Shown here piece after piece: positions 5,344 to 5,528 of a DNA stretch of 61,912 nucleotides. The notes under the pieces are model-generated. The model was not told where the DNA came from, did no database searches, and saw only the letters and a list, made by a program, of their open reading frames with translations. The stretch spans positions 1-61,912 of the forward strand of contig DQKS01000045.1 in NCBI GenBank assembly GCA_015660645.1. The letters run 5' to 3'. A program made the translations under genes and the position numbers. The stretch's first letter is position 1; every line of letters begins with the position of its first letter. This DNA comes from Gammaproteobacteria bacterium. GTDB lineage: Bacteria; Pseudomonadota; Gammaproteobacteria; Magnimaribacterales; Magnimaribacteraceae.

Positions 5344-5372
5344 TTGACCGACTATTGAGGCGTATATATCCT
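5344..5372 (+). promoter_or_regulatory. predicted sigma-70 promoter for the leuA leader
   Basis: TTGACC at 5344-5349 and TATCCT at 5367-5372 are separated by exactly 17 bases. Transcription should start near 5378-5380, which is at or a few bases before the AUG of the leader ORF at 5380. The leuA start codon is then about 150 bases downstream. Confidence 0.65.
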
Positions 5373-5379
5373 AGTAGAA

Positions 5380-5472
5380 ATGACTTTAGTCACGACCATA
5401 ATTTTAAGTTTACGACTTACCAACCCGGCCCTTGTTAGACAAGGATTGCCGGGCTTATCTCTATCTGTTTAG
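5380..5472 (+). CDS. leuA leader peptide (30 residues, Leu-rich)
   Basis: A short ORF between the leuA promoter and leuA. It encodes 30 residues beginning MTLVTTIILSLRLTNPALV and ending GLSLSV. Eight are Leu, two Ile and three Val, with Leu at 9, 11 and 13 as a dense cluster. Branched-chain codons ahead of a leucine biosynthetic gene are the hallmark of a ribosome-mediated attenuator. The AUG lies at the predicted transcription start, so the peptide would be made from a leaderless or nearly leaderless message. A GC-rich hairpin lies inside the ORF just after the Leu cluster. No homologue is claimed; the call is inferred from position, composition and structure. Confidence 0.6.
   Translation: MTLVTTIILSLRLTNPALVRQGLPGLSLSV
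5424..5453 (+). promoter_or_regulatory. GC-rich hairpin in the leuA leader
   Basis: CCCGGC (5424-5429) pairs with GCCGGG (5448-5453), and CCTTGT (5430-5435) pairs with ACAAGG (5439-5444) around a TAG loop, with an ATT bulge: 12 base pairs in 30 bases, 19 of them G or C in an otherwise AT-rich region. It is followed by CTTATCTCTATCTGTTT rather than a clean U tract, so it is not a textbook intrinsic terminator. A second hairpin, GTTTAG/CTAAAC (5467-5472 with 5477-5482), covers the leader stop codon. Confidence 0.7.
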
Positions 5473-5528
5473 TAGCCTAAACACTGCAACTAAAACCGCT
5501 AATATAGTAATCCTTTGAGGAAATTTCA

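Follow-up and report, generated by a model that had tools for sequence, protein, structure and literature searches.

Genomic context of leuA

The window, meaning the whole stretch of 61,912 nucleotides that was analysed, derives from a member of the SAR86 cluster and carries leuA at 5529-7211 on the forward strand. This gene encodes a 2-isopropylmalate synthase of 560 amino acids, starts with TTG, and follows a Shine-Dalgarno sequence, GAGGA (5517-5521, forward strand), which was read from the sequence. Given that the nearest upstream open reading frame (ORF; 4898-5305) lies on the opposite strand, leuA is the first gene in its transcript. Elsewhere in the window, a tmRNA gene (36576-36929, forward strand) and an Alpha operon ribosome binding site (50979-51069, reverse strand) scored above the Rfam gathering score. 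Matches to LeuA outside SAR86, from a scan with six short peptide patterns only, came from Desulfocapsaceae (56% identity) and from Clostridia and Bacilli (about 50%), and a tree of this 560-amino-acid protein may be worthwhile for tracing its origin.

Our comparison set comprised 35 genomes of the same family, mostly drafts obtained from metagenomes or single cells. Homologues of leuA were present in 33 of these, and the region upstream of the gene was readable in 32. Counts across the set are inflated by the kinship of the genomes, although the main contrasts still hold between genera. An element of common layout was found upstream of leuA in 31 of the 32 readable genomes, representing six genera. 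It consists of TTGACC, a -10 box, an ATG, an open frame over codons 2-17, and a bulged GC-rich hairpin. The spacing from AUG to the leucine codon at position 13 (Leu13) and on to the hairpin is the same in all 31 genomes, with the hairpin beginning exactly 5 nt past the Leu13 codon.

Promoter and transcript start

An earlier note on this DNA had proposed a promoter with a 17-nt spacer, and its coordinates hold: the -35 box TTGACC lies at 5344-5349 and the -10 box TATCCT at 5367-5372 (forward strand). TTGACC is invariant among the 31 genomes, and the distance from the -35 box to the leader ATG is 35-37 nt in every one of them, so that 6-8 nt separate the end of a -10 box at 17-nt spacing from the ATG. 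Many leaders of genera g5 and g7 offer a better box, TATAAG, with a 15-nt spacer and ending 9-10 nt before the ATG. Since the usual promoter spacing sets the first transcribed nucleotide within about 3 nt of the ATG, the leader is probably leaderless or nearly so, and in this genome the spacing would put the start at 5378-5380. As had also been suspected, the promoter geometry leaves no room for a leader Shine-Dalgarno sequence in any of the 31 genomes.

The leader ORF and its leucine codons

The leader ORF (MTLVTTIILSLRLTNPALVRQGLPGLSLSV; 5380-5472, forward strand) runs from an ATG at 5380 to a stop codon at 5470-5472, and its 30 codons include eight Leu, two Ile and three Val, exactly as first counted. 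The conserved part covers codons 1-17 (5380-5430), which align without a gap in the 30 distinct leaders. Among the 510 codons of this alignment no stop occurs in the ORF frame, while the remaining forward frames contain 101 and 26, and in the freely varying codons 5-11 the corresponding numbers are 0 against 31 and 18. Stops or frameshifts in close relatives, named by the earlier note as grounds for rejecting the ORF, are thus lacking from codons 2-17; the one exception in the start region is a genome (L004) with ATA instead of ATG at codon 1, where an in-frame ATG is seen at codon 5. The end of the ORF is variable, with lengths of 18-32 codons and stops at codons 19-33 that fall in the hairpin loop, in its 3' arm or past the hairpin.

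The leucine codons nearest to the hairpin form a block at 5404-5418 (forward strand), made up of Leu9 (TTA, 5404-5406), Leu11 (TTA, 5410-5412) and Leu13 (CTT, 5416-5418). Leu13 is invariant in all 30 distinct leaders and is written CTG, CTT or CTA, while Leu11 occurs in 24 of the 30 and is written with five synonymous codons. For comparison, TTA is the commonest leucine codon in the window's genes (42%) and CTG accounts for 4%. Leucine makes up 47% of codons 9-13 (71/150), 11 of the 120 residues at codons 5-8, and 10.2% in the window's genes. A true leucine run, four codons long (CTT CTG CTG CTA at codons 10-13), is found in genus g4 and nowhere else. Given that the ORF past about codon 18 is unconserved, Leu codons 18, 23, 26 and 28 lie outside the element. 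The description of a Leu-rich ORF therefore stands for Leu13 and mostly for Leu11, but not for this tail, and the placement of the Leu codons just 5' of the hairpin is kept across the family in the 31 genomes.

Hairpins and conserved RNA structure

The dominant structure, hairpin B (5424-5453, forward strand), lies within the leader ORF and has a lower stem CCCGGC/GCCGGG, a 3-nt bulge (5445-5447), an upper stem and a 3-nt loop, with a folding energy of -17.6 kcal/mol. The 12 base pairs of the GC-rich hairpin originally reported are there; the bulge had been left unmentioned. Nearly all leaders keep the bulge, both stems show compensatory changes, and the hairpin forms with a probability near 1 in every leader. 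A second, much shorter helix (helix A) joins AGUC to the GACU of codons 12-13, that is, leader nt 9-12 to nt 35-38 (5414-5417); its 4 bp include one compensatory case and are seldom formed in folds. Changes on both sides were found at 6 of 15 counted pairs, 11 of the 15 lying in the hairpin, which was matched by 1 of 500 shuffles. With helix A counted alongside hairpin B, 97.8% of the cells pair and both-sided changes occur in 18 cells, against 3.5 in shuffles; shifting the partners by one column lowers pairing to below 50%. Alignment of the relatives, which the earlier note had suggested as a check, thus yielded synonymous changes at Leu11 together with compensatory changes in the stem.

The folding of this one leader is only mildly better than that of its shuffles (z -1.9), and the case from a single genome is therefore thin. 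It is the sole point in favor of regarding the locus as a 5' untranslated region of the ordinary sort in which ORF and hairpin arose by chance, an explanation that is scarcely credible given that every comparative test speaks against it and conservation across six genera refutes it. At the level of sequence, the observation itself is confirmed and the comparative case for the element is solid.

A different possibility is that the conserved unit is an RNA structure that binds a protein or some other ligand, with the ORF incidental or merely accessory; a protein-binding role has been proposed for the actinobacterial LEU element (PMC1262725). Hairpin B strongly keeps its bulge and its sequence, and a rare CGA and a rare GTC codon of the ORF are nearly invariant, which points to constraint at the nucleotide level. 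A ligand-binding RNA does not, however, account for a frame that is open in 30 distinct leaders, for the synonymous turnover at Leu11 or for an enrichment of leucine that is confined to codons 9-13, and we regard it as quite unlikely.

Around the leader stop codon, the predicted second hairpin (hairpin C, 5466-5483, forward strand) is present in this genome but weak. Small hairpins of other sequence occupy the same site in genera g1 and g5 and in most of g7, and they are poor or absent in g2 and g3. No U tract of the kind found in terminators follows hairpin B in any of the 31 leaders, where 3-6 T occur in the next 10 nt, so the absence of a clean tract reported for this leader extends to the whole set. 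Terminator-like sites are likewise missing from 5250-5600, and neither inspection nor folding revealed a competitor for the arms of hairpin B. Alternative pairing, put forward earlier as one way in which the hairpin might act, thus finds no antiterminator partner, and switching of the classical type is absent. The classical scheme of E. coli leuL, transcription attenuation by an intrinsic terminator, would fit the order of Leu-rich leader ORF, GC hairpin and leuA. For this leader it is largely refuted on these sequence grounds, as well as by the lack of any Rfam match, and is to be considered very improbable.

Distribution of the element

Within the family, the one readable genome without the element (L029, genus g6, 96% complete) has leuA, but neither the sequence ahead of that gene nor a model search gave any trace of the leader. 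In the sister SAR86 families (f2 and f3), the element and any comparable hairpin are missing from 78 leuA upstream regions, so that it was either lost in f2 and f3 or gained in the present family (f1). Class-wide, 369 genomes gave no convincing match as far as the covariance model reaches. Weak matches of that model within the order (E 0.008-0.9) were not accepted, as the six inspected adjoin or overlap unrelated coding sequence and seem to be chance matches. In the source genome, a pattern search returned the leuA copy alone without mismatches, matches with three mismatches being no commoner than in a reversed control, and no obvious leader precedes ilvB of the same genome. No Rfam family matches the leader at default or permissive thresholds.

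Complementarity of the leader and leuA starts

Leader nt 4-13 (5383-5392, forward strand) are complementary to a segment at the start of leuA (TGACTAAAAT; 5530-5539, forward strand). Of these, nt 9-12 have helix A as an alternative pairing. Across the 25 genomes of genera g1, g5 and g7, at least 8 of 10 pairs can form in each between this part of the leader (AUUUUAGUCG in most) and the leuA start (UGACUAAAAU). Two single changes preserve a pair as G-U or U-G, and C-A mismatches occur in g1 and in one g5 leader. The complementarity is not present in g2, g3 and g4. In free folds the leuA start pairs with leader nt 1-15 in all 25 leaders of g1, g5 and g7 (mean probability 0.34-0.85) and in none of those of g2-g4. 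For a given sequence, up to about 10% of shuffled targets reach an equal duplex energy, and the pairing therefore rests on conservation and not on energy.

Such conservation is seen in the leuA codons concerned. Over the 25 genomes, ACT stands at codon 2 in all 24 that have Thr there, AAA at codon 3 in all 25 and ATA at codon 4 in 24, whereas columns with a single codon across leuA number 1 of 18 for conserved Thr, 1 of 10 for Lys and 0 of 29 for Ile. Third positions in codons 2-6 are nearly frozen, the second highest value among 554 windows along the gene. Codons 5-6, also frozen, lie beyond the pairing, and ordinary gene-start constraint may therefore contribute as a partial alternative explanation. 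At the other end of leuA, codons from about 554 to 560 of g1, g5 and g7 have third positions as conserved as those at the gene start, which an edge effect or some overlapping signal could explain.

Occupancy of the leader by ribosomes was imitated by masking. When leader nt 1-50 are masked, as for a stalled ribosome with a queued one behind it, the leuA start opens in all 25 leaders (unpaired probability 0.31 to 0.67); when nt 20-50 only are masked, as for a single ribosome stalled at Leu13, it stays closed in the folds. Overall access to the Shine-Dalgarno sequence and start showed no consistent change under the ribosome masks. These models predict that in three genera, including this one, the leuA start is sequestered and opens once a ribosome initiates on the leader. 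The complementarity between leader start and leuA start in the three genera is new.

In genera g4 and g2 (leaders L026, L028 and L030), another hairpin lies within about 40 nt of leuA, formed by AAAAGGU..ACCUUUU, or by AUCCUU..AAGGAU or CCAUCC..GGAUGG and then AUUUU. Both genera are without the leader-leuA pairing, and this hairpin is possibly their own output element.

Proposed mode of action

The reading we hold to be probable is that of a cis-acting, leaderless leucine leader-peptide attenuator of leuA that works without an intrinsic terminator. Comparison among genomes gives it its basis in the open frame, the Leu codons, the spacing, the hairpin and the promoter position, as well as the complementarity in three genera; from these we infer the start site, the stalling, the response to leucine and the translational output. 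Counting against it are that Leu13 alone is invariant and that helix A may partly account for the conservation of CGACT in codons 12-13.

Transcription would start on the leader AUG or no more than about 2 nt from it, and ribosomes would therefore read the ORF from a leaderless end. Under a shortage of charged Leu-tRNA, a ribosome would wait with Leu codon 13 (or 11) in its A site. By general ribosome geometry, a ribosome held at Leu13 would have its front near leader nt 49-50. Its edge would then rest on the CCCGG arm (nt 45-49) of hairpin B and, by covering it, hold the lower stem open. When leucine is plentiful, the ribosome would continue, stop in or just past the hairpin and leave, upon which the hairpin closes (the off state). 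Because an intrinsic terminator is lacking, what the leader controls is most likely access to the leuA start.

Folding gives no support to the idea that one stalled ribosome opens leuA. Because a ribosome stalled at Leu13 alone leaves the leuA start closed, the model needs a second, queued ribosome, which in g1, g5 and g7 would sit on the leader AUG (33 nt between P sites) and hold the leader-leuA pairing open. A translational output of this kind is favored for these genera, given that the mask over nt 1-50 opens leuA and that over nt 20-50 does not. The fuller proposal, in which the first codons of the leaderless ORF act as an antisense of the leuA start, a queued and not a stalled ribosome exposes that start, and the 33 nt from AUG to codon 12 reflect the spacing of two ribosomes, is speculative and we consider it unlikely to hold in its entirety. 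Judged from the sequences, the pairing cannot be the output shared by all genera, since it is absent from g2, g3 and g4, and the shared core (ORF, Leu13 and hairpin B) must have some output in those three.

The main rival retains the same leucine leader peptide but assigns the output to Rho-dependent termination before or early in leuA after the leader ribosome leaves, with Rho loading on a C-rich, G-poor stretch ahead of the gene. Rho is encoded in the genome, and such an output would serve g2-g4 too. The stretch between hairpin and Shine-Dalgarno sequence is mostly weakly structured. Its C/G ratio, 2.29 over the 31 leaders, exceeds the 0.77 of 61 other upstream stretches in the window, although these controls are often coding. 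It is, however, just 25-75 nt long and would be left uncovered by a ribosome stalled at Leu13, so that the simple version predicts more termination upon starvation, which is the wrong sign. We rate both the Rho output and its loading on this stretch as rather unlikely.

Comparison with known leader systems

Leader peptides of leuA that are leaderless and lack a typical terminator are already known in Actinobacteria, as is a leaderless trpL in Sinorhizobium. The closest parallel to the proposed attenuator is the actinobacterial leuA leader or LEU element (PMC1262725), in which a short ORF containing Leu codons likewise precedes leuA. The leuL1 leader of Streptomyces lividans (PMC8079986) is leaderless and has no typical terminator, as predicted for the SAR86 leader. 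The structure proposed for LEU extends to the leuA initiation region, and the SAR86 pairing in three genera likewise involves the leuA start. LEU, however, contains a pseudoknot, and in it a base stem joins the run of Leu codons to the leuA Shine-Dalgarno sequence, whereas the SAR86 pairing joins the start of the leader to the start of leuA; phylum and sequence differ as well. A base stem of the LEU type, pairing Leu codons with the Shine-Dalgarno sequence, was sought in the SAR86 leaders, and its duplex energies fall within the range of shuffles in nearly all of them. The SAR86 element may act like the actinobacterial leaders, but the lack of this stem speaks against assigning it to LEU.

The E. 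coli leuL leader (Rfam Leu_leader, RF00512) shares with the SAR86 leader the Leu codons of a leader peptide placed before a hairpin and leu genes. It differs in having a terminator, an antiterminator and a leader Shine-Dalgarno sequence, and its Rfam model does not match here. In Sinorhizobium meliloti, also a proteobacterium, the trpL transcript begins with the leader ATG, as is predicted here, but that system responds to tryptophan and ends in a transcription terminator (PMC7298713). The ilvB-OMG, ilvB and ilvB-II motifs (PMC10272879) resemble the present element in carrying a conserved upstream ORF rich in branched-chain codons within a structured leader. They differ in preceding ilvB, ilvB-II has a terminator at its end, and no Rfam model matches the SAR86 leader.

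Implications for SAR86

SAR86 is an abundant, streamlined and mostly uncultured marine group, and a literature search on SAR86 and leader peptides found no description of leader-peptide control in it. With this element, leuA leaders that lack a terminator are no longer known from Actinobacteria alone but also, in another architecture, from a gammaproteobacterium, so that the mode of action of such leaders becomes testable in a second, independent system. That one family keeps this conserved RNA element, a probable switch, while its sister families lack it at leuA suggests selective retention of leucine control in these small genomes.
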